From: Pyxidicoccus sp. MSG2
GTDB lineage: Bacteria; Myxococcota; Myxococcia; Myxococcales; Myxococcaceae
DNA: 64,000 nucleotides
Direction of reading: 5' to 3'
Assembly (NCBI RefSeq): GCF_026626705.1
Contig: NZ_JAPNKC010000001.1
Span: 2,852,001-2,916,000, forward strand
Shown: in pieces, positions 9,113 through 19,695 of the stretch
How the letters are laid out: each line of letters begins with the position of its first letter
Position numbering within the stretch: the stretch's first letter is position 1
Translations under genes and position numbers: made by a program
Notes under the pieces: model-generated
What the model was told of the DNA's origin: nothing
What the model saw: only the letters and a program-made list of their open reading frames with translations
Database searches by the model: none

Positions 9113-9361
9113 GTGAACGACTCCTCGCCAGGCAGGTGAGGTCGGGCCCGGCCTTCACCATGGCGTCGACCGGGACACCAGGAGATCGACAACCCCCGGC
9201 GTCTTTTCTTCGCGGGCGGCCAAACCGCCGGAATCGCGGGGCATTTCCCCGCGGTCCTCCCCGGGGACACCGACCCCCCCTGTGCCTCCGCGCGCCCCTC
9301 CGCGCCGGATGGGGCCTCGACGACTCGCGGATGTATGCGAGGACCCGGTGCAAGGAATTGG

Positions 9362-10687
9362 ATGCAATGCCTTGTCAATACCTCCCCCTCGACTTGCAAC
9401 GGGGGCGGCAGGAGGCGCAGGCTTCCGCCTCCGCGAGACGTATTGGAGCTGCGCGCGGAGTGGGGGGGAGTCTGCTTGCTGCCGCCGGTGCACACCGCAC
9501 TGCTCGACTCGCTGGACCGGCATGCCCGGCGGCGCGCGGAAGGCATTGCCACGCTGAGCACCCTCGTGGGTCCACCCGAGCAGGGACTCGCGCTGCTCAC
9601 CCAGTGGATTCACCGTCGCGGCCTCGGCGTCGCCGTCGCCGAAGGGGATGACCCGCGCGCGATGGTCTCCGCCTGGGCCACGGCCCTCGCACGTGAGCGG
9701 GACCTGACCTCGGATGCGGAGGCCTTCGCCGTCCGCGCCCAGGCCCCGGGGCCGCGAAGGGACTTGCAGTTCCGTGGAAAGACAGCCCACGAGCGCCGCG
9801 TCCTGTTGGACGGCCTCGCACTCCCACACTCCGAGCCTGCCACGTGGGAGCTGTGCCGGAGTCTGCTCGAAGCCCCTTCCCTGCCCTCACCCGGCAGCCT
9901 GCCATCCCTGGTGAGCAGGGCCATCGAGAAGGAGCCACTCGCGGCGCTCCAGTCGCTGCTCGCCCTCGTGCCTCCTGGCAGCGCACCCGCGCTGCGCGCG
10001 CGTGGAGGCGCCGCCGACTTCCGCGCCCTCCGAACCGTCGCATCGCTCTGTGCCGCGGCCCCTGGCCTCACCGCCGTGTGTGTCCTCACGCCGGAGTCCC
10101 TCGCCGAGCACCTGCGCCGGGAGGAGTCCCGGGCCCTGGCCATGCTGCGCGAGGGCCGGCTGGACCTGCCGGAAGCGTCTCGCGAGACGCCGGCCGCGAG
10201 CCCGGTGGACCCCACGCTGGCCCGGCTCCGACAGGAGGGCACTCCACAGCCGGTCATCGAGCTCTACGAGGAAGCGGCCCGCGCCATCACCACCGGCCGC
10301 CGGGAGGCCGAGGACCGCGCCCGCAGCGCGGCCGAGCGCTACCTCCAGGCCCAGCTCCACGCGCACCCCAGCACCCGGAACCTCTTCAAACCCAATGTCC
10401 GCCTCGACGTGGGTGACGGCGGCCGCCCGCTGGAGGTGGACCTGCTGTGCCGCAAGTACCGGCTGGCGGTGGAGCTCGACGGACACTTCCACTTCCACGA
10501 CGCCGAGTCCTTCCGCCGGGACAGGCGCAAGGACCTCGCACTCCAGCGCGCCGGCTACTGGGTCGTCCGCTTCCTCTCCGACGACGTCGTCTCCCACCTG
10601 GAAGACATCTTCGAAACGCTCGACACGCTGATTGCCGCCCGGAGGCAGGAGTCCTCGGGGCCGGAGGTAACACATGAACCCCGCTGA
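9362..10687 (+). CDS. protein with C-terminal DUF559/PD-(D/E)XK nuclease domain, first gene of ATPase cassette
   Basis: The C-terminal quarter has the DUF559/Vsr-like nuclease pattern: NVRLDVGDGGRPLEVDLLC, then LAVELDGHFHFHD, then RRDRRKDLALQRAGYWVVRF. The EVD, VELDG and Lys-containing strands provide the expected metal-binding acids. The first 300 residues are helical and unrecognised. The start is uncertain: ATG 9362 has an AAGGA site 5 bases upstream, ATG 9335 is an alternative, and the first 25 residues look unlike protein, so TTG 9443 is also possible. Its end overlaps the next gene by 14 bases. Likely role: DNA cleavage directed by the downstream ATPase; this is inference. Confidence 0.75.
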   Translation: MQCLVNTSPSTCNGGGRRRRLPPPRDVLELRAEWGGVCLLPPVHTALLDSLDRHARRRAEGIATLSTLVGPPEQGLALLTQWIHRRGLGVAVAEGDDPRAMVSAWATALARERDLTSDAEAFAVRAQAPGPRRDLQFRGKTAHERRVLLDGLALPHSEPATWELCRSLLEAPSLPSPGSLPSLVSRAIEKEPLAALQSLLALVPPGSAPALRARGGAADFRALRTVASLCAAAPGLTAVCVLTPESLAEHLRREESRALAMLREGRLDLPEASRETPAASPVDPTLARLRQEGTPQPVIELYEEAARAITTGRREAEDRARSAAERYLQAQLHAHPSTRNLFKPNVRLDVGDGGRPLEVDLLCRKYRLAVELDGHFHFHDAESFRRDRRKDLALQRAGYWVVRFLSDDVVSHLEDIFETLDTLIAARRQESSGPEVTHEPR

Positions 10688-11678
10688 CCCCCGGCTGGCC
10701 GGGATTGCGATGTGCTGGCTCTTCACCCGCGGCAAGAAGCCCGGCAGTCGAAAGGAACTGGAGACAGCGCTCCGCCCCTTCGTGGAGCATCGCCTCAGCA
10801 GCGCCGAGTCGAAGGCCCGCTTCGACATGCTCGTCTCGCGGCTCACCGGCGACGCGCTCGTCACGGAGCGGGCACGCGGCGGCCTCGAGTTGACGGCGGA
10901 TGGACGCGCTGGCGCGCTGCGCTTCCTCGGCCTGGAGCAGGCGCCACGGGGGCTCACCTGGAAGAAGCTCAAGGCCACGTACCTGCTGGCGCGCACCCTG
11001 GAACTGCCGCCCACGAAGCCCGTCCTGGCCCGCCTGTCGAGCGCCGACGGAGTGCGCGCCACGCTCCTGAAGCAGGAGCACGGCCTGGCGGACGCGGACG
11101 GCCTCACCCTGGCACAGGTGAGAGACAGGCTGCTGTGGCGGCAGCTCGGAGTGGAGACGGACCGTCCCTTCTCGCTGAGCGCCGTGCAGGCGCACCTCCT
11201 CGGGAAGCTGCTGGACTCCGAGACGAAGGACCCGCGCAAGGCGGTGGAGCAACTCGCCGCGCGCTCGGCCGGGGCCACGCGCGTGGATGCCGAGGCCGTG
11301 CGCCTCGCCATCCTGCGCCGCTGGGCCCTGCCGGACTCAGAGGCTCACGCGCCCGCTGAAGTGCCTCCCCCGCAGACGGAGCAGGACAGCGCATCCGAGG
11401 ACTCGGTGGCGAGCTTCGCCGAGCGCGTGCTCGCCGTGGCCCGCGCCCTGCCCACCGGCCGCTTCGGGCAGAACAAGGTCTTCATCTCCCACGTGTGGAA
11501 GGCCCTCCAGCCCGAGTGGGGCAACCGCGAGGCCTTCGACGTGGCGCTGCTGGAGGCCAACCGCACGCGGCACCTGTCCCTGACGCGCGCGGACCTCGTG
11601 TCCGCCATGGACCCGCGCGACGTGGCCGACTCCGAGGTGCGCTCATACGGCGCCACCTTCCACTTCGTCGTCATCTAG
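10674..11678 (+). CDS. probable winged-helix protein, middle gene of ATPase cassette
   Basis: The ATG at 10674 follows a strong GGAGG site and overlaps the nuclease gene by 14 bases. The 334-residue product begins with a likely winged helix (helical LAGIAMCWLFTRGKK, ending GLELTADGRAGALRFLGLE), has a helical middle rich in Leu/Arg, an acidic-polar linker near residues 220-245, and a compact C-terminal domain (KVFISHVWKALQ to GATFHFVVI) that also looks like a winged helix. No enzyme motif is seen. It may bind DNA or link the nuclease to the ATPase. I do not recognise a named family. Confidence 0.7.
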   Translation: MNPADPRLAGIAMCWLFTRGKKPGSRKELETALRPFVEHRLSSAESKARFDMLVSRLTGDALVTERARGGLELTADGRAGALRFLGLEQAPRGLTWKKLKATYLLARTLELPPTKPVLARLSSADGVRATLLKQEHGLADADGLTLAQVRDRLLWRQLGVETDRPFSLSAVQAHLLGKLLDSETKDPRKAVEQLAARSAGATRVDAEAVRLAILRRWALPDSEAHAPAEVPPPQTEQDSASEDSVASFAERVLAVARALPTGRFGQNKVFISHVWKALQPEWGNREAFDVALLEANRTRHLSLTRADLVSAMDPRDVADSEVRSYGATFHFVVI

Positions 11679-11702
11679 CCCGCCTTCCTTCCGGAGCGCT
11701 CC

Positions 11703-14700
11703 GTGCCCATCGACCCTCGACTCGAGGCCTTCCTCACCGACGGCCGCGAGGTCTTCAACAGCGTCCAGCAGGGCCAGCAACTCTGGCAGGCGGACCCGTT
11801 CGACGTAGAGGCCCTCAACGCTCCTGCCCGCCGCGCCTTCAAGCGGCTGCTGGAGCGTGCCGCGTCCGACTCGCCTCCAGACGCAGGCAAGCTGCTGCTC
11901 CTGCTCGGCGAGTCCGGCAGCGGCAAGACGCACCTGGTGCGGTCGTTCCGCAACCTCGCGCACGGCCAGCGGAAGGGCTTCGTCGGCTACATGCCGATGA
12001 CCGTCGATGCGACCCGCTATGACGGGTACATCCTCTCCAACCTCATCGACTCGCTGGACAAGCCATATGACGTGTCCGCCGGAGAGGACAGCGGGCTGAT
12101 GCGGCTGTCAGACGCGCTGATGGCGCACTGCAAGAGCGCCTTCGCGCCCCTCATCCCGGACGAGAAGGTGCTGGAGGACGACGAACTGCACGGCACCATC
12201 CGCGCCGTGGCGGACGAACTGCTGGAGGACCCGCGCTTCGAGAGTGTCGAGGTGGACCTGCTGCGCGCGCTCATCTACCTGCAGCGCAGGGACCCGCGAA
12301 TCAACCGCCGCATCTTCCACTGGCTGCGCTGCGAGGAGCTGACCGAAGCGGACCGGAAGGTCATCGGCGAGCTCGTGCCCCGCATGGCGGACGACGGACC
12401 GATGCGGATGGTCGAGCACCTGGGGCGACTGATGGGGACGCTCGGTCAGGCGCTGGTGCTGTGCGTGGACCAGGTGGAGGACGTCAACGAATTCGAGGAG
12501 CGCCCGCAGATGGAGCGCTCCTTCCGGCGAGCCATGAGCAGTCTGTCGGCCATCGTCAGCAAGGTGCCCCGGGCCGTCGTCGTCGTCTGCTGCCTCTCCG
12601 ACTATTGGGTGAGGATGCGGCCGCAGCTCACGCAGTCCCTGCTGGACCGCATCGAGAACGACCCGGAGCCGGTGGAGTTGGAGCGGACGGTGACGCCCGA
12701 CACGGCCCGCGACATCGCGGCGCGGAGGCTGCGCTCGCTGTACGAGCAGCGCGGCGTGTCCATCAACCCCGCGGACCCGACGTGGCCCATCCCGGCGAAG
12801 GGCTTCGACAAGCTCGGAGGGCAGCGGGCGCGCGACGTGCTGAACGAGTGCCGGCGCTACCGCGAGCGGGCGCTCCAGGACCAGCAGTTGCCGGAGGCAT
12901 TTCCCATTCCCCGTCCAGGCGTGAAGGAGCCCACGGCAGCAGGGGTCAAGCCACCCTCGAAGCCCGACGTGGACCAGATGTGGACGGACTTCAAGGCCAC
13001 GTACAAGACGAAGCTGCCCGAGGAGTCCTCGGACCTCGCCATGCTGCTGGCCTGGGCCATCGAGGTGGGCAGCGACGAACTGGGTGGCACACCGCGCTTC
13101 GCCGTGAAGCCCCGGGATGAAGAGGCGATGGACGTCAGCGTGCAGCCGGAGGGCAGCAAGCTCCTCGTCGCCCTCTGCGACAGGAGCCCCCGAGGCGGTG
13201 GGCTTGCAAGGCAGATGACCGCCGCACTGAAGGCTGCCGCAGGCAAGACGCCGGTCCTCGTGCGGACCTCCGAGTTCCCATCGACGACCGGCACCCTGGT
13301 CGCGGACCAGATTGGCCTGCTCATCCGCAAGGGTGGGCGGCGCGTGGTGATGGGTGACGGCGAGCTGCGAGAACTGGTGACGCTGCGTGCCTTCCGTGAG
13401 CAGCACAAGGGGCAGACCGCGGTCATGGAGTGGAGCCGGACGGCGCGCCCCGTCACCCGACTGAAGTCTGTCGGCGACATCCTCGGACTGGAGCGTCTGG
13501 GTGCCACGCCGCCACCGTCCGGTCCACCATCGTCTTCCCCACGTCCAGCTGAACCCAACTCACGAAACACGGGGGCGGGCGCCAACAGTGCCTCGGCTCG
13601 CACCGAGCCGCGCGGCACCGCGTCTCCGAGCCAGTCGAGCCTCTTCGAAGGCACGGCCACCGTGGCATCCAGCGACGCGCCTCCGTTGGAGCTCAAGGCC
13701 GCCGGGGACATGCTGTCCTCGTCCTCCCGAACGGTGACGCCTCCGAAGGGCACACCCGTGCCCGCGGGGCTCCAGACCCGCCGACGCACCGTCACGCCCA
13801 CGCCCGTCCCGGCGGTGCCGCGCGAGGTGCTCACCGGGCCAGTAAAGCTCGGAGCCTCGGAAGGCTTCTTCACGCAGACCATCTCGCTCGAACCCGCCGA
13901 GCTGACGCGGCACAGCGCCTTCCTCGGCGGCACGGGCAGCGGCAAGACGACGCTGGCGCTCAACGTGTTGGAGCAGCTCCTGCTCCGGGGCGTGCCCGCC
14001 ATCCTCATCGACCGCAAGGGAGACCTCGCCACGTACGCGCGCGAGCTCTCCTGGCAGGAGAAGCTGGAGGACCCCTCGCTCCACGAGCGCCGCCGCCTGC
14101 TGCGCGAGCGCGTGGAGGTGGCCGTCTACACGCCGGGCCGCTCGGACGGGCGGCCCCTCGCCATTCCCATCGTGCCCCGGGGCCTCGACACGCTTCCGAC
14201 CGAAGAGCGCGAGCAGGGCGTCCAGCAGGCCGCGGACGCCATCGCGGGGATGCTCGAATACAAGAGCAACAGCGACAAGGCGGCCCACGCACTGCTCGCC
14301 CAGGCGCTCCGGCTGCTCGTGCAGCGCCCGCTCGGCAGGGACCTCACGCTGGAGGTCGTACAGCAGTTCGTCGCCGACCAGGACGAGGCCCTGCTCCAGG
14401 AAGCCGACGGAATTCCCTCGAAGACGTTCGCCAAGCTCGCCCAGGACCTCTCGGTTCTCCGCCTCAACCTGCGGTCCCTGCTGGCCTCCGGCGGCGAGCG
14501 GCTGGACCTGGAGGAACTGCTCGGGCGTGGCGCGTCGGGCACGCCGGGCAAGACGCGGCTGAGCGTCATCAGCACCAAGTTCCTCGGGGACAACAACCGC
14601 ATCCTCTTCTGGGTGTCGCAGCTCCTCCTGGAGACGAACCGCTGGACGAGCCAGCACCCGGCCTCCCAGCTCCAGGCGGTGCTCCTCTTCGACGAGGCGG

Positions 14701-15125
14701 ACATGTACCTCCCCGCGACGATGAAGCCCGCCACGAAGCAGCCCATGGAGGACCTGCTCAAGCGGGCCCGCTCCGCCGGTGTGGGGGTGATGCTCGCCAC
14801 GCAGAGCCCGGGGGACCTCGACTACAAGTGCCGCGAGAATGTGCGGACCTGGTTCGTGGGCAAGGTGAAGGAAGACAACGCCATCCGGAAGCTCCGGCCC
14901 ATGTTCACCGAGGCCCGAGTGGACGCGGATGCGAAGCTCCCCTCCCAGAAGCAAGGCCAGTTCCACGTGCTGCGCGACGGTCAGGTGCAGCAGCTCAAGG
15001 CGGACCGCTCCGTCATGCGCACCGAGCAGCTCGCCGAGGACGAAATCCTCAAGCTCGCGCGACAGACCCTGGACAAGAGCAGGAGCACGGCCGCCGGCAC
15101 GTCCAAGGCCGGCGGTTCGCGCTGA
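11703..15125 (+). CDS. 1140-residue protein with two P-loop ATPase domains, the second HerA/VirD4-like
   Basis: It starts at GTG 11703, 24 bases after the winged-helix gene. Domain 1 has Walker A GESGSGKTHL (residues 69-78) and Walker B LVLCVDQVED (251-260), like a STAND or ORC-type loader. Residues about 430-590 form an alpha/beta region. A Ser/Pro/Thr-rich linker leads to domain 2 with Walker A GGTGSGKT (742-749), IDRKGDLATYA, Walker B LLFDEADMYLP (about 995-1005) and sensor-like LATQSPGDLDYK, as in HerA/VirD4 DNA pumps. It is soluble, with no membrane segment. HerA-type motors power DNA translocation with partner nucleases; the upstream nuclease fits. The two-motor layout recalls large ATPases of BREX-like systems but matches none I can name. 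Confidence 0.85.
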   Translation: MPIDPRLEAFLTDGREVFNSVQQGQQLWQADPFDVEALNAPARRAFKRLLERAASDSPPDAGKLLLLLGESGSGKTHLVRSFRNLAHGQRKGFVGYMPMTVDATRYDGYILSNLIDSLDKPYDVSAGEDSGLMRLSDALMAHCKSAFAPLIPDEKVLEDDELHGTIRAVADELLEDPRFESVEVDLLRALIYLQRRDPRINRRIFHWLRCEELTEADRKVIGELVPRMADDGPMRMVEHLGRLMGTLGQALVLCVDQVEDVNEFEERPQMERSFRRAMSSLSAIVSKVPRAVVVVCCLSDYWVRMRPQLTQSLLDRIENDPEPVELERTVTPDTARDIAARRLRSLYEQRGVSINPADPTWPIPAKGFDKLGGQRARDVLNECRRYRERALQDQQLPEAFPIPRPGVKEPTAAGVKPPSKPDVDQMWTDFKATYKTKLPEESSDLAMLLAWAIEVGSDELGGTPRFAVKPRDEEAMDVSVQPEGSKLLVALCDRSPRGGGLARQMTAALKAAAGKTPVLVRTSEFPSTTGTLVADQIGLLIRKGGRRVVMGDGELRELVTLRAFREQHKGQTAVMEWSRTARPVTRLKSVGDILGLERLGATPPPSGPPSSSPRPAEPNSRNTGAGANSASARTEPRGTASPSQSSLFEGTATVASSDAPPLELKAAGDMLSSSSRTVTPPKGTPVPAGLQTRRRTVTPTPVPAVPREVLTGPVKLGASEGFFTQTISLEPAELTRHSAFLGGTGSGKTTLALNVLEQLLLRGVPAILIDRKGDLATYARELSWQEKLEDPSLHERRRLLRERVEVAVYTPGRSDGRPLAIPIVPRGLDTLPTEEREQGVQQAADAIAGMLEYKSNSDKAAHALLAQALRLLVQRPLGRDLTLEVVQQFVADQDEALLQEADGIPSKTFAKLAQDLSVLRLNLRSLLASGGERLDLEELLGRGASGTPGKTRLSVISTKFLGDNNRILFWVSQLLLETNRWTSQHPASQLQAVLLFDEADMYLPATMKPATKQPMEDLLKRARSAGVGVMLATQSPGDLDYKCRENVRTWFVGKVKEDNAIRKLRPMFTEARVDADAKLPSQKQGQFHVLRDGQVQQLKADRSVMRTEQLAEDEILKLARQTLDKSRSTAAGTSKAGGSR

Positions 15126-15193
15126 CGCCTCACCCGATATCCCCCAGCCCCTCACCGGGCCACCAGTCGTGCCGGCCCGCCGGCCTGGGCCCG

Positions 15194-15212
15194 CTGAAGG
15201 CCCGGCCTTCAG
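15194..15212. terminator. hairpin downstream of ATPase cassette
   Basis: CTGAAGGC pairs with GCCTTCAG around a 3-base loop, 68 bases after the ATPase stop. No T-run follows, so termination is weakly supported. The rest of 15126-15272 has no gene. Confidence 0.35.
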
Positions 15213-15272
15213 TGGAGGTTCCTGGTAGGAAGCGCCTCCGGCATGGACCTACCCAACCTCCTGGAGCGCTGA

Positions 15273-16097
15273 ATGTTCTCGACGGTGGCGGTGGACGGAG
15301 AGGTGCGGCGCTGGGAGGACCTGCGCCTGCATGACTTCGCGCAGGGGTTCTTCTTCGGCGCGGGCTTCTTCACCACCTTCCGCATCGACTCGGGCGCCCC
15401 ACTCTTCCTCGCCCGTCACCTCGCACGGCTCCGGGCCAGCCTCGCGGCCTTTCCCGACGCCGTCCGCGCACCTTCGCCCGCGCTCCTCTCCGACTCCCCG
15501 GTGCGCGACACGCTCCGCCGCTGTCTCCACGCGGATGCGGCCCTCGGACCGGACTTCACCGGCGTGGGCAAGCTGTCCGTGAGCGACGGGCACGTGCTGC
15601 TCACCTTCCGCCCGACACCTCCCGACGCGGAGCGCCTCCTCCGAGAGGGCCGCGCCTTGGACGCCGTGGAGCCCGAGGCCTACCGACGCGCGGAGCGCAC
15701 GCTGAACCACAAGGGCCTCTCCTACTTCCGCCAGTTCGCCTTGATGGAGCGCCTGCCCGTCCTGGGCAACGAGGACGGCGAGGTCTGCGAATTGCCCACC
15801 GCCAACCTCTTCTTCCACCTGGACGGAGCGCTCGTCACGCCGCCGCTGGACGCGCCCTGCCTGCCGGGCATCGTCCGCGCGGTGCTCCTGGAAATGGGCC
15901 ACGTGGACGGGCTGCCCGTGGTGGAGCGGCCGGTGCCCCTCGCGCGCCTCGCGGACGCGAGCGCCTGCTTCTTCACCAACTCCGCCGAGCTGGCCATTGG
16001 CGTGCCTCGCCTGCTCGGGCGCGAGCTGCCCGGAAGCCTGCCCCTGGCCGAGCGGGCCCGCGCCCTCATTGAAGCGGTGGCGTGGCGCGAGGCCTGA
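15273..16097 (+). CDS. class IV aminotransferase-fold enzyme, aminodeoxychorismate-lyase-like
   Basis: This 274-residue PLP enzyme has the fold-type IV landmarks: the PLP Lys in LNHKGLSYF (about residue 147), the phosphate-binding region ELPTANLFF, and PPLDAPCLPGIVR. The length fits PabC (4-amino-4-deoxychorismate lyase, which makes 4-aminobenzoate for folate) or a D-amino acid/branched-chain aminotransferase. The lysine neighbourhood and the APCLPGI motif favour the PabC-like branch, but no other pab gene is adjacent. The next gene starts 14 bases downstream. Confidence 0.8.
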   Translation: MFSTVAVDGEVRRWEDLRLHDFAQGFFFGAGFFTTFRIDSGAPLFLARHLARLRASLAAFPDAVRAPSPALLSDSPVRDTLRRCLHADAALGPDFTGVGKLSVSDGHVLLTFRPTPPDAERLLREGRALDAVEPEAYRRAERTLNHKGLSYFRQFALMERLPVLGNEDGEVCELPTANLFFHLDGALVTPPLDAPCLPGIVRAVLLEMGHVDGLPVVERPVPLARLADASACFFTNSAELAIGVPRLLGRELPGSLPLAERARALIEAVAWREA

Positions 16098-16111
16098 GGC
16101 ACACTGCGCCC

Positions 16112-16699
16112 ATGAGTCGCTCCCTCGTCATCGCCCACCGCTGGGCGGGCCGCCCCGACACCGACTTCTATCCCTGGCTCGACGAGAAGCTCCGCCAGCC
16201 TCCGGCGAGCTTCGACTCCATCCGCGCGCTCGATATGCCGCAGCCGGGCACGCCCACCATCGACGGCTGGGTGTCCGCGCTGCGCGACGCGGTGGGCCCG
16301 GTGCCCGCGCCGTCCACCGTCTTCCTCGGGCACAGCGTGGGCTGCCAGGCCATCCTGCGCTACCTCGCCACGCTGCCGCCGGGACACACCGTGGAGGGCG
16401 CCCTCCTCGTCTCCGGCTGGTTCGAGGTGGACAAGACGTGGGACTCGCTGCGCCCGTGGCTCGACACGCCCATCGACTTCGAGCGCGCCCGCGCCGCGCT
16501 CCGCCGCTGCGTCGTCCTCCTGTCCGACAATGACCCGTTCACCTCGGACTGGCGCCGCAACTCGCTCCTGTGGGAGGAGCGCCTGGGCGCGGAGGTGGTC
16601 GTCATCCCTGGCGGCCGTCACTTCAACAACCCGCGCGAGCCCGCCGTGCTGGAGACGCTGCAGTCGCGCTTCGGCTCCGGCTCACAGGACCAGGCCTAG
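16112..16699 (+). CDS. RBBP9/YdeN-type serine hydrolase
   Basis: The start at ATG 16112 gives 195 residues, the usual length for this alpha/beta hydrolase family; the upstream in-frame start would overlap the PLP enzyme. The nucleophile elbow is GHSVGC (about residue 73), the Asp lies in LLSDNDPF and the His in GGRHFN, completing the triad. VIAHRWAGRPDTDFYPWL at the N-terminus is typical of the family. Small intracellular hydrolases of this group have poorly known substrates. It converges on the pseudouridine synthase gene, overlapping its 3' end by 18 bases. Confidence 0.85.
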   Translation: MSRSLVIAHRWAGRPDTDFYPWLDEKLRQPPASFDSIRALDMPQPGTPTIDGWVSALRDAVGPVPAPSTVFLGHSVGCQAILRYLATLPPGHTVEGALLVSGWFEVDKTWDSLRPWLDTPIDFERARAALRRCVVLLSDNDPFTSDWRRNSLLWEERLGAEVVVIPGGRHFNNPREPAVLETLQSRFGSGSQDQA

Positions 16700-17479
16700 C
16701 CCCTCCGCCACCTCTTCGTCCCGCAGCAGCCGCCACGCGCCCTCGGCCACGTCCAGCACCACGCCGCCCACGGCCTCGCGGTGCAGCGCGAGCACCGGGT
16801 GCCCCACGGCGGCCAGCATCCGCTTCACCTGGTGGTGCCGTCCCTCCGTGAGCGTGAGCTCCACCACGTCCGGCTCCCGCAGCCGGGCGCCCGCGGGCCG
16901 CGTGGGCCCGTCCTCCAGCACCAGGCCTTCGCGCAAGCGCAGCAGCGCGGCCTCCGAAGGCTGCCCCGCCACCCGCGCCACGTACCGCTTGGACACGTGC
17001 GTCTCCGGTGACGTCCCGTGCCGCACCAGGCGCTCGTCGTTGGTGAAGAGCAGCAGCCCGGTGGTGTCCCGGTCCAACCGGCCCACCGCGAGCCACTCGT
17101 AGCCCCGCATCGCCTCGGGCAGCACGGCGCGCAGGCGCTCGAACACGGTGCCCACGCCCTCCGGGTCCGAGCCGTGCACCACCGGCCCCGCGGGCTTGTG
17201 GAACATCAGCGCCAATACCGGCGCCGCCAGGTCGCGCACCCGGCCATCCACCCGCACCTCCAGGCCGGGCCGCACCGGCGCGAAGGGCTCGCGCTCCACG
17301 CGCCCGTCCACCTCCACCCGCCCCTCGCGAATGGCGGCTTCCGCCTCCGCGCGTGGCAGCACGCCTGCTCTTCCCAGGGCCCGGGTCAGCCAGTCCGCGC
17401 GCCCTTCGGGAGGCACGTCCCCGGGCCCTCGGCGCCGCGCCGCCTCCAGCCATTTCGGGGTCCGCTGCCTGCGGGCCAT
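16682..17479 (-). CDS. RsuA/RluB-family pseudouridine synthase
   Basis: The start at 17479 is preceded by GAGGAGG; the longer frame from 17620 runs through the divergent promoter and is rejected. The 265-residue product has an N-terminal S4 RNA-binding domain (LTRALGRAGVLPRAEAEAAI), then the catalytic segment GRLDRDTTGLLLFTND with the active-site Asp, then EGRHHQVKRMLAAVGHPV. This order is diagnostic of RsuA/RluB/RluE/RluF enzymes, which isomerise one uridine in 16S or 23S rRNA. Which position is modified cannot be told from the motifs. Confidence 0.92.
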   Translation of the reverse strand: MARRQRTPKWLEAARRRGPGDVPPEGRADWLTRALGRAGVLPRAEAEAAIREGRVEVDGRVEREPFAPVRPGLEVRVDGRVRDLAAPVLALMFHKPAGPVVHGSDPEGVGTVFERLRAVLPEAMRGYEWLAVGRLDRDTTGLLLFTNDERLVRHGTSPETHVSKRYVARVAGQPSEAALLRLREGLVLEDGPTRPAGARLREPDVVELTLTEGRHHQVKRMLAAVGHPVLALHREAVGGVVLDVAEGAWRLLRDEEVAEGLGLVL

Positions 17480-17618
17480 CGCCTGCCTCCTCGCATCGTG
17501 ATTCCCACCGCGAACCGCCGCCCCCTCACCCGCCTGCCCTCCCTTCGAGGCTGCCGATCCGTCGAGCAGCGAACGGAGCATGCCTACCTTCAGGAGCAAC
17601 CGCACTGGAGGAGACTGC

Positions 17619-18059
17619 ATGGGCAGCGTACTGGAAGGACCGAACGTTCAGGGAAGCAGCTACTCGCAGCGTCCAGTGGGCTCCTCGGGCCTCTCCGATG
17701 GCGAGCACTCCACGGGCAGCATCGCGCAGGCCAGCAAGGAGCAGGTGAAGCAGCTGAGCGGCGTCGCGAAGGGCCGCGTCTACTCGCAGGTGGAAAGCCG
17801 CAAGGGTGAGCTGGTCAAGGGCATCCAGGGGCTGGTGTCCACGCTGGAGTCGGTGGCGCGCAACGACGAGGCCGCCGTGGCCCGCCCGCTCCTCACCAGC
17901 GCGGTGGGAGTGCTGCGCAAGACGTCGGACCGGCTGGAGAACGGCACCACCGAGGAGCTCCTCGCGGATGCCCAGGAGCAGGTGCGTCAGCGGCCCGGTC
18001 TGTTCATCGCGGGGTGCGTGGCCGTGGGCTTCGCCCTTGGCCGGTTCATCAAGGTCTGA
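17619..18059 (+). CDS. YqjD/DUF883-like inner-membrane protein
   Basis: GGAGGA precedes ATG 17619, so this start is preferred over 17580. The 146-residue protein is amphipathic-helical (EQVKQLSGVAKGRVYSQVESRK) and ends with one membrane segment (GLFIAGCVAVGFALGRFIKV), the layout of ElaB/YqjD ribosome-associated proteins. It is the first gene of a three-gene set matching the order of E. coli yqjD-yqjE-yqjK. Such proteins sit in the inner membrane and are linked to stationary phase or envelope stress. Confidence 0.75.
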   Translation: MGSVLEGPNVQGSSYSQRPVGSSGLSDGEHSTGSIAQASKEQVKQLSGVAKGRVYSQVESRKGELVKGIQGLVSTLESVARNDEAAVARPLLTSAVGVLRKTSDRLENGTTEELLADAQEQVRQRPGLFIAGCVAVGFALGRFIKV

Positions 18060-18073
18060 CGGGGGGCACGCGG

Positions 18074-18550
18074 ATGGAACCAACGATTCCACGCCATGAC
18101 GGCGACGGGTTCCGGGAACGCCCGGACGCGCGGGACTTCACCTTCGGGAGCCGCGGCTTCGGGGAGCTGTTCTCGGAGTTCATGGAGCAGGGACGCCGGC
18201 TGGTGCGTGCCGAGGTGGCGCTGGCGCGCGCGGAGCTGAAGACGGAAGCGAAGAAGGCGTCGGCCGGCGCGGGTCTGCTGGCGGGCGGCGGCGTGGTGCT
18301 GTTCCTCGGGGCGCTGACCTTCGTCGCGTTCCTGGTGGCGGCGCTGGCCGTGCTGATGCCGGTGTGGGCGTCGGCCCTCGTCGTGGCGGTGCTGCTGCTG
18401 GCGGTGGGTGGCGCGGTCGCCTGGGCGGGCCTCGGAAGACTGAAGCGCCTCCACGGACCGCAACGGACGATTCAAACCCTCAAGGAGGATGGGCAATGGG
18501 CGAGCAGGACCGCGCACTCCATGAAATCGCAGATGCACGGGCACGCCTGA
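18074..18550 (+). CDS. phage-holin-superfamily (YqjE-like) membrane protein
   Basis: This 158-residue protein has an N-terminal amphipathic part (GELFSEFMEQGRRLVRAEVA) followed by two membrane segments (about residues 75-95 and 98-120), as in the 'phage holin 3_6' family that includes E. coli YqjE. Despite the family name it is not a phage gene here; it sits between DUF883-like and DUF3618-like genes. Its 3' end overlaps the next gene by 55 bases in another frame. Confidence 0.8.
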   Translation: MEPTIPRHDGDGFRERPDARDFTFGSRGFGELFSEFMEQGRRLVRAEVALARAELKTEAKKASAGAGLLAGGGVVLFLGALTFVAFLVAALAVLMPVWASALVVAVLLLAVGGAVAWAGLGRLKRLHGPQRTIQTLKEDGQWASRTAHSMKSQMHGHA

Positions 18551-19695
18551 GCGAGCTGGCCGACGAGCTGGCCCTCAAGGCCGAACCGGACCGCCTGAAG
18601 GCCATGGCCAGGGAGTTCGCCGCCGAGAAGACGGCCGAGCTCAAGCAGCACGCAAAGGATGCCGCCGTGGAAAAGGCCACGGAACTCAAGACACACGCCA
18701 AGGAGACCGTGATGCAGAGGACGACGGAGCTGAAGGAACGTGCCGACAGTCCCAAGGGGTGGAGCCTGCTGGGAGCCCTCATCGGCGCCGGTGTGGGCTC
18801 GGTCCTGATGCGCAAGGCCTTCACCCGGCGCGAGGAGTCCCGGTACGACGACTCCCGGGACGGCCGGTGGCGGGACGAGGACCGGTGGCGCTACGACGGC
18901 CTGCGCGCGGAGCGCCGGGACCTGCGCTACGACGATGACCGCTATGCTTCCGCCGAGCGCACCGACCTCGGCTACGGCGCGGGCACCGGCTACGGTGACG
19001 TGCCCTACCAGCGCGCGGCGTCCACCGGCTACCAGGGCGTGCCTCCCAACTACGACGTTTCCTCCGAGGCCACGTCCAACGTGAAGGACCGCGCGTCCGA
19101 GGCAGCCCACACCGTGAGGGACCGCGCCGTCGACGTGAAGGACCGTGCCGCGGGGGCGGTGGACCACCTGAAGGAGCGGGCCTCGCACCTGCGTGAGCGC
19201 ATCCCCTCGCGCGACGCCGTGCAGTACCGCACCACGGACTGGTTCAACCGCACGGTGGACGAGCAGCCGCTCCTCCTGGCGCTGGGTGGCATCGCGCTGG
19301 GCATGCTGGCCTCCACGCTCATCCCGGTGTCCAACCAGGAGCGCCGCCTCATGGAGCCGGCCAGGCGCCGCGCCGGGGAGGAAATCTCGCACCTGGGCGA
19401 CCAGCTCCACCAGCGGCTCCAGGGCCGCGAGGCGCCGTCGTCCAGCCATGACAGCCGCCAGGGCGCCTCCGCCTCGAGCGTCTCCTCCACCTCGGACCTG
19501 AACACGCCCGGGACCACGGGCTTCGGGGCGAGCAGCATCAGCAGCCCGAGCAGCAGCGCCGGCCCGGGCGCCACCACCTCGGGCGTGAGCGTGTCGGGCA
19601 CGGAGGACAGCGCGGACGCGCTCGCCTCGTCGCCCTCGGGCTCGTCGCGCCTCCCCCCGCTGCCTCCGCTGGATGACATGACGAAGGTGCACTGA
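18496..19695 (+). CDS. DUF3618-like membrane protein with long disordered tail
   Basis: AAGGAGG lies 7 bases before ATG 18496, which places the start inside the holin-like gene. The 399-residue product opens with the DUF3618 pattern (ADARARLSELADELA), then Lys/Glu/Ala heptad-rich helices, a short hydrophobic segment (LLGALIGAGVGSVLM), an Arg/Asp/Tyr-rich region, and repeats of a KDRA-type unit near 240-260. A second hydrophobic segment (LALGGIALGMLASTLIPV) follows, and the end is a Ser/Pro/Gly-rich low-complexity tail. It probably scaffolds or anchors at the inner membrane. Confidence 0.75.
   Translation: MGEQDRALHEIADARARLSELADELALKAEPDRLKAMAREFAAEKTAELKQHAKDAAVEKATELKTHAKETVMQRTTELKERADSPKGWSLLGALIGAGVGSVLMRKAFTRREESRYDDSRDGRWRDEDRWRYDGLRAERRDLRYDDDRYASAERTDLGYGAGTGYGDVPYQRAASTGYQGVPPNYDVSSEATSNVKDRASEAAHTVRDRAVDVKDRAAGAVDHLKERASHLRERIPSRDAVQYRTTDWFNRTVDEQPLLLALGGIALGMLASTLIPVSNQERRLMEPARRRAGEEISHLGDQLHQRLQGREAPSSSHDSRQGASASSVSSTSDLNTPGTTGFGASSISSPSSSAGPGATTSGVSVSGTEDSADALASSPSGSSRLPPLPPLDDMTKVH

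Follow-up and report, generated by a model that had tools for sequence, protein, structure and literature searches.

HerA/FtsK capture systems are a computationally predicted class in which an ORC/CDC6 ATPase, an inactive and an active restriction endonuclease (REase), a HerA/FtsK motor and a winged helix-turn-helix (wHTH) domain occur together (Rakesh, Aravind and Krishnan 2024, PMC10853773). According to the main text of that work, the components are present in one or several polypeptides, the inactive REase follows the AAA+ core and precedes a C-terminal wHTH of the ORC/CDC6 protein, the REases are of two families, one of which is also found in AbiJ, the HerA/FtsK domains fall in clades 2, 4 or 5 of a tree, and the gene neighbourhoods are mobile. 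The terms 'DUF559', 'MTES' and 'Myxococc' do not appear in this main text. A trio of genes, here termed A, B and C, is found at positions 9362–15125 (+ strand) of a 64,000 nucleotide (nt) stretch, the window, from the 13.34 Mb genome of Pyxidicoccus sp. MSG2 (contig NZ_JAPNKC010000001.1, 2,852,001–2,916,000). The trio likely belongs to the HerA/FtsK capture class, ORC/CDC6 type. It has in common with the class, as described in the main text, an ORC/CDC6-type AAA+ domain (structural match 1fnn) and a HerA/FtsK motor in one polypeptide, an REase with an intact motif, and a winged-helix gene. It differs in that the REase is of the DUF559 type, which may or may not be one of the two families described, and in that the trio is nearly fixed in its lineage, whereas the neighbourhoods of the class are mobile.

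The trio consists of three + strand open reading frames (ORFs), A at positions 9335 or 9362 to 10687, B at 10674–11678 and C at 11703–15125. A and B overlap by 14 nt and B and C are separated by 24 nt, the close spacing given in a preliminary description of the window. Judging from this layout, A-B-C would be one operon.

Gene C starts with GTG and encodes a fused two-motor protein of 1140 amino acids (aa). The N-terminal motor is an ORC/CDC6-like AAA+ domain (positions 11790–12902) with Walker A GESGSGKT at 11907–11930 and Walker B VLCVDQVED; Pfam finds AAA_22 (3e-11) and AAA_16 (3e-9) at this end of the protein. An AlphaFold2 model of residues 4–600, made from 31 sequences, has a mean predicted local distance difference test (pLDDT) score of 82.9. 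The AAA+ part of the model best matches Cdc6p (1fnn; Foldseek 3.2e-5; Z 15.4, root mean square deviation 3.9 over 262 residues), and BrxC also resembles it (9zll; Foldseek 4.3e-4, Z 12.4). The VIA-align rows for this model cover mainly residues 1–411. The preliminary description called this motor 'STAND/ORC-like'; of the two, the ORC/CDC6 likeness has the stronger support, with Pfam nSTAND models matching C only below their cut-offs.

The C-terminal motor is of the HerA/FtsK type (positions 13833–15086), as the preliminary description had proposed, and is recognized by Pfam (HerA_C 1.1e-10, DUF87 2.9e-9), PADLOC and alignments. The alignments show conservation of its motifs, namely Walker A (GGTGSGKT, 13926–13949), Walker B (LLFDEAD), RAR and TQSPGD. 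Of the PDB sequences, two match C at E ≤0.01, and both are of the HerA type. Between the two motors there is a further conserved domain (positions 13008–13502), absent from the preliminary description, followed by a poorly conserved linker (13503–13832). The predicted order of secondary structure in this middle domain is alpha-beta-beta-beta-alpha-beta-alpha-beta, and the alignment has no E-x-K on the third strand. The domain may be an inactive REase fold: the helix and strand order fits such a fold, and the lack of E-x-K on the third strand makes it a candidate for inactivity. It is conserved in the Actinomycetota and Alphaproteobacteria homologues by profile comparison. No wHTH is recognized after the middle domain of C. 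In one relative (L104 7427–11179, genome G076), C has approximately 200 extra residues before the AAA+ domain. The structure alignment A4 comprises 16 of 32 HerA rows, and A1 was made without L027.

Gene A encodes the nuclease subunit (9443–10687, + strand). Its C-terminus carries a DUF559/MTES_1575-type domain (positions 10322–10652), with DUF559 found by Pfam at 2e-9, in agreement with the nuclease end noted in the preliminary description. The PF04480 (DUF559) score is 37.7 bits, above the curated cut-off of 20.6; the MTES_1575 score of 26.7 is below its own cut-off of 38.2, and the rest of A has no Pfam family above cut-off. The motif is S-x2-E...N...D...E-x-D-G-x2-H...D-R...D...R. Residues S295, E298, N318, D333, E344, D346, G347, H350, D360, R361, D364 and R376 (numbered from position 9443) are invariant in 63/63 A sequences, of which 60 are from Myxococcota loci (window included) and one each is from Tsukamurella, Nonomuraea and Methylobacterium. 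Vsr and DUF559 proteins are alike to PD-(D/E)XK nucleases, and the motif in A suits an active Vsr/DUF559-like nuclease of this type, as far as conserved residues can indicate. Only one PADLOC model matches A, at 0.03, and A from Tsukamurella gives only weak matches to DpdF (6e-5) and a methyl-directed REase (9e-5).

The start of A is probably downstream of position 9362, at TTG 9443, TTG 9476 or GTG 9488. This is based on the lack of conservation over the initial ~35 codons read from 9362 and on the many homologues of ~406 aa. The start at 9362 given in the preliminary description is therefore not favoured, as the conserved part begins only near residue 35 of that frame. In L021 and L027 a stop is present upstream of the conserved part of A, which still leaves long ORFs of 406 aa (L021) and >250 aa (L027). 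The genome of L048 (G019:C87) has a second, broken partial A with an in-frame stop near an FAD3-like fragment; its intact trio is elsewhere.

Gene B (10674–11678, + strand) encodes a putative DNA-binding subunit of 334 aa. An AlphaFold2 model from 31 sequences has a mean pLDDT of 85.4. The N-terminal ~90 residues (residues 2–90, positions 10677–10943) form a winged helix, and the 50 matches listed are mostly to MarR/PadR-type regulators (VIA-align Z 9.9–11.9; rows mainly over residues 2–111). The probable winged-helix protein of the preliminary description is thus confirmed at the level of the model. One clear winged helix is present. The C-terminal alpha/beta domain (residues 245–334, positions 11406–11675) is winged-helix-like by secondary structure only; in the alignment, conservation of B is highest over these 90 residues. 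Foldseek with the B model finds nothing at E ≤0.001, and B has no Pfam family and no PADLOC model.

The trio as a whole fits no PADLOC system, consistent with the statement in the preliminary description that it could not be matched to BREX, Wadjet or other named systems. The comparisons below include 17 neighbouring ORFs of the window, scanned with Pfam only. PADLOC matches to C are mainly HerA-type models, the best being mad8 (4.9e-28), and the HerA parts of several distant homologues are also closest to mad8. MADS consists of eight mad genes, one of them for a DNA methylase. Of the PADLOC mad models, C is matched by mad8 (strong) and mad3 (Walker A only, 0.0005) and by no other, and A and B by none; membership in MADS was rejected. 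Unlike MADS, the trio has no methylase next to it, and the 17 neighbours include no kinase family; the one methylase among them, of the C5 type, is ~8 kb away beside two Eco29kI-type REases. HerA-DUF4297 and HerA-SIR2 are pairs of a HerA motor and an effector, whereas in the trio a single polypeptide joins HerA to an ORC/CDC6 AAA+ domain, with a DUF559-type effector. Wadjet is a structural maintenance of chromosomes (SMC)-type JetABCD complex. It was rejected in the absence of any SMC-type family in A, in B, in the 17 neighbours or among the best 25 of the 41 families matched by C. BREX combines PglZ with BrxC and BrxX. The likeness to BREX is limited to the BrxC-like fold of the AAA+ half of C, and BREX was rejected in that no PglZ-type or BrxX-type family is found among the 17 neighbours; PMC12839542 (2026) describes a BREX-related offshoot.

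DndFGH/SspFGH also have a HerA/FtsK motor, an REase, a winged-helix protein (DndG) and a further P-loop protein. DndH has an eight-domain core and a mean length of 1700 aa (PMC10853773, main text). With 1140 aa for C, and a DndH match to C over only ~80 HerA residues (PADLOC, 0.0014), membership in DndFGH was rejected. No paper on this trio was found by title or abstract start among the matches listed, in a search with subscription papers and supplements outside its scope, and none in the literature searched names both DUF559 and DUF87; in the consulted part of PMC7159879, HerA is in the reference list only. The trio was put forward in the preliminary description as a candidate new defence system. 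The lack of a PADLOC match for the whole agrees with this, but the architecture had been predicted as HerA/FtsK capture systems (PMC10853773, main text), so the trio is a variant and not a new kind, and its core-locus behaviour in the host lineage also speaks against that designation.

The distribution of the trio was analyzed with a profile of the N-terminal half of C, searched against 195 genomes of the phylum. There are matches in 71/195 genomes, 64 of them strong (E <1e-100). A further 104 genomes without a match are not itemised, and genus totals rest on consecutive genome numbering. Seven weak matches, with best E from 1e-12 to 1e-3 (G032, G043, G051, G095, G096, G151 and G156), are left out of the count of C. 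Relatives of C are found in records named Pyxidicoccus, Myxococcus and Corallococcus, among others, which are predatory, fruiting bacteria; the genome of the window itself has one match. Seven genera of the Myxococcus family were chosen for having at least one match below 1e-100, and on the condition of that choice C is present in 61/63 genomes. The counts are 27/27 in the genus of the window (g1), 6/6 in g8, 2/2 in g30, 16/16 in g31, 4/4 in g32, 5/7 in g33 and 1/1 in g34. C is also found in G038, G075 and G076 beyond these genera. The profile finds C in 0/6 genomes of a further genus of the family, g29 (G109–G114, 4.8–10.2 Mb). B is found in 29/61 genomes and A in 31/61, and both are in 27/27 of the window's genus; the extra A matches in G049 and G050 are to the nuclease part only.

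A-B-C are together and in this order in 26/26 same-genus relatives (the L034 contig ends within C) and in 31/34 loci of the six other genera (L070–L103; A of L086 is cut by a contig end). The same order is present in L046, and in L047 as well, although A and C are truncated there by the ends of its 3.4-kb contig. Adjacency of the three genes in other genomes, which the preliminary description had proposed to check, is common and not rare. The conservation count is without L048 and without L012, L013 and L015, duplicates of L041, L030 and L043, and for A also without L021 and L027, whose ORFs are shortened; the 63-sequence A alignment includes both of the latter. The L015 record is titled Comamonas sp. 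KCTC 72670 and carries a myxobacterial trio; the organism label looks wrong.

Most genera have a recurrent set of predicted genes flanking the trio, and these sets are different from genus to genus. Downstream of the g1 trio are pabB, pabA and pabC (AT4) in 25/25 relatives that have sequence there (25 of 26), and FAD3 is upstream in 15/26 same-genus relatives; the flank comparison lists 10 of 27 g1 loci. An upstream family is common to 6/6 g8 loci. In g31, with C in 16 genomes and the loci of G120, G124, G125 and G128 outside the fetched set, 11 of the 12 loci are on contigs that extend far enough upstream, and all 11 have a common upstream family; the downstream flanks vary. The double copies of g33 are at one site each, and L089 (g33) and L103 (g34) share no flank. 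In the window, unlike in the same-genus relatives, the stretch from C to pabC/AT4 (positions 15126–15272) contains neither pabB nor pabA. The best PabB-like match in the genome of the window is only 42% identical, and this gap is either a real deletion or an assembly error.

A tree of C (57/67 C sequences, without the cut L034 and nine g1 copies) has two well-supported family groups, each mostly sorted by genus. Both g1 and g31 form single groups, and the genus labels need 12 changes where the minimum possible is 10. In the single control family, SMODS, the count is 19/27 genomes of the genus. The trio in this host lineage behaves like a vertically inherited core locus and not like a patchy defence-island cassette. 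Median ratios of nonsynonymous to synonymous substitution (dN/dS) within the genus of the window, from 275 pairs common to the genes and with synonymous counts that are rough in such GC-rich DNA, are 0.43 for A, 0.34 for B, 0.32 for C and 0.21 for pabB. The values of 0.32–0.43 against 0.21 indicate that the trio is constrained yet fast-evolving. Together with the conserved ORF order, they show that the trio is not a chance arrangement.

The order DUF559, small protein, AAA/HerA fusion is also found in Tsukamurella, Nonomuraea and Methylobacterium, for three phyla in all. Tsukamurella tyrosinosolvens NZ_LR134464 has a DUF559 protein, a 223 aa protein and a DUF87 protein by Pfam; Nonomuraea gerenzanensis has DUF559 and AAA/DUF87 proteins in the same order, and the Methylobacterium aquaticum plasmid pMaq22A_1p has the same gene order. 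A comparison of profiles between phyla gives E 4e-16 for the nuclease part of A and E 5.3e-25 for the N-terminal half of C (AAA and middle domain, 539 columns). The B proteins of the other phyla are alike by position and size only. A plasmid search with C found four records with weak partial matches, and from one of these the sets of Actinomycetota and Methylobacterium were reached. Among viral contigs there is one distant HerA-like ATPase (31%), on L112, a 200-kb contig. In a Tsukamurella record labelled plasmid (L110 4268–9236), rpsQ and rplN, part of a series of ribosomal-protein genes, flank the DUF559, hypothetical and DUF87 genes, which are accompanied by a PIN/VapB pair and a DEAD-box helicase; the ribosomal flanks are per the annotation of the record.

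Several loci have neighbouring genes of note. At positions 97–2594 of the window, ~7 kb upstream of the trio, a C5 DNA methylase gene is followed by two tandem Eco29kI-type restriction endonuclease genes, and L045 has genes of the same clusters as this Eco29kI set upstream of its trio. L093, a second B-C copy, is adjoined by SMODS and ThiF genes; these are not seen in L091, which has the same upstream flank. In L018, a metagenome-assembled genome, the gene after B-C encodes a caspase-bDLD3 protein, with EAD5 at only 0.003, below cut-off. Downstream of these genes (15574–19389) is a 1271-aa protein with an RNA polymerase alpha carboxy-terminal domain and sigma-70 region 4. A Verrucomicrobia locus (L019) has a separate AAA gene and a HerA fused to PDDEXK_1, and the ORFs downstream of this HerA appear by eye to be type I CRISPR-Cas genes. 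L108 (G156) has an AAA gene and a PDDEXK_1-FtsK/HerA fusion that is closest to SspH. The CBASS-like (cyclic oligonucleotide-based antiphage signalling), caspase and CRISPR-like neighbours of some relatives support defence. Together with the architecture, they give support, from sequence, to a putative defence role of the trio.

On this evidence the trio is probably, with considerable room for doubt, an inherited ATP-driven restriction machine against invading DNA. What follows is inferred, namely that the proteins form a complex, that this pumps and cuts DNA, which DNA it targets, and that its role is defence. The winged helix of B and the ORC/CDC6-like half of C would bind or encircle incoming double-stranded DNA and act as the recognition switch. 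ATP binding would lead to assembly of the complex, and the HerA/FtsK half of C would pump the DNA. Nuclease A may dock through its lineage-specific N-terminal region, through the middle domain of C, which seems to lack catalytic activity, or through both, and would cut the pumped DNA. The targets would be foreign DNA (phage, plasmid or element), with the chromosome spared by some feature of DNA or replication. In the Myxococcus family this machine would now be nearly fixed and vertically inherited in seven genera.

A number of observations weigh against such a restriction machine. The near-fixation of the trio, at mostly genus-specific fixed sites beside pabB/pabA/pabC or ordinary genes, is unusual for a defence cassette, and defence cassettes usually come and go. 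The immediate neighbours in the window are metabolic by Pfam. The second copies L091, L093 and L096 (all g32) have B-C without A, and only B and C, with no A beside them, are found in the outer relatives L017, L018, L104, L105 and L106 (L105 begins inside B). Between phyla the homology of B is not significant (hhalign probability 3.8%, E 0.011), and the N-terminal region of A has no significant homology by profile comparison. Among annotated phages, no relative of C was found. Near-fixation also speaks for a housekeeping or life-style machine, acting in chromosome segregation, repair or prey-DNA processing, that came from a defence ancestor and is no longer mainly defensive. This explanation is unlikely, with an appreciable chance of being correct. 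It is in keeping with the presence of C in nearly all genomes of the seven genera, the fixed neighbours within most of them, a C tree close to the genus pattern and the lower count of the SMODS control. However, the trio proteins evolve faster than pabB, the nuclease motif is fully kept, and bacteria that are not related have a similar cassette in various locations, one of them a plasmid. In addition, C is absent from 2/7 g33 and 6/6 g29 genomes, some of 8–10 Mb, and the trio is therefore not generally essential.

The loci without A also bear on an abortive type of immunity, in which C together with B would act as a sensor and, through activation of A, have the chromosome of the host cleaved, instead of invader DNA being pumped and cut. 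The caspase-bDLD3 protein after B-C in L018, where no DUF559 gene is found, and the three second copies without A suggest that B-C may drive different effectors. The HerA motor motifs are kept, suggesting DNA translocation, and A is kept beside B-C in all of the same-genus relatives and nearly all loci of the other six genera, and we consider abortive immunity quite improbable. The possibility that the trio is cargo or part of a mobile element has still less in its favour and is very improbable. The Tsukamurella copy inside a ribosomal-protein gene run, the Methylobacterium copy on a plasmid and the distant HerA-like gene on a viral contig would be in line with it, but the sites are fixed within most genera, the pattern is mostly vertical and C has no annotated phage relative. 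For the window, mobile-element cargo was rejected on the basis of the fixed sites and of the 17 neighbours, among which Pfam finds no integrase or transposase family.

The trio is likely a compact three-gene form of the class that was predicted from sequence (PMC10853773, main text). Myxobacteria are nearly plasmid-free (PMC11705834, PMC6091211), and the reason is described as an open question (PMC11705834). One improbable but more specific proposal is that the trio is a core DNA-exclusion machine and a main reason that free plasmids are rare in these bacteria; B and the ORC-like half of C would sense the plasmid, HerA would pump it and A would cut it. Against this, plasmid-bearing Myxococcus strains exist (M. 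fulvus 124B02 and, by a paper title, Myxococcus sp. MxC21), and G137 has one copy on a 941-kb second contig, which may be chromosomal, and another on the main contig. M. xanthus is genetically tractable. If the proposal is true, replicating plasmids would transform Myxococcus much more readily once the trio is deleted. For an immunity system, near-fixation across seven genera was not to be expected, and it is relevant to the rarity of plasmids in myxobacteria.

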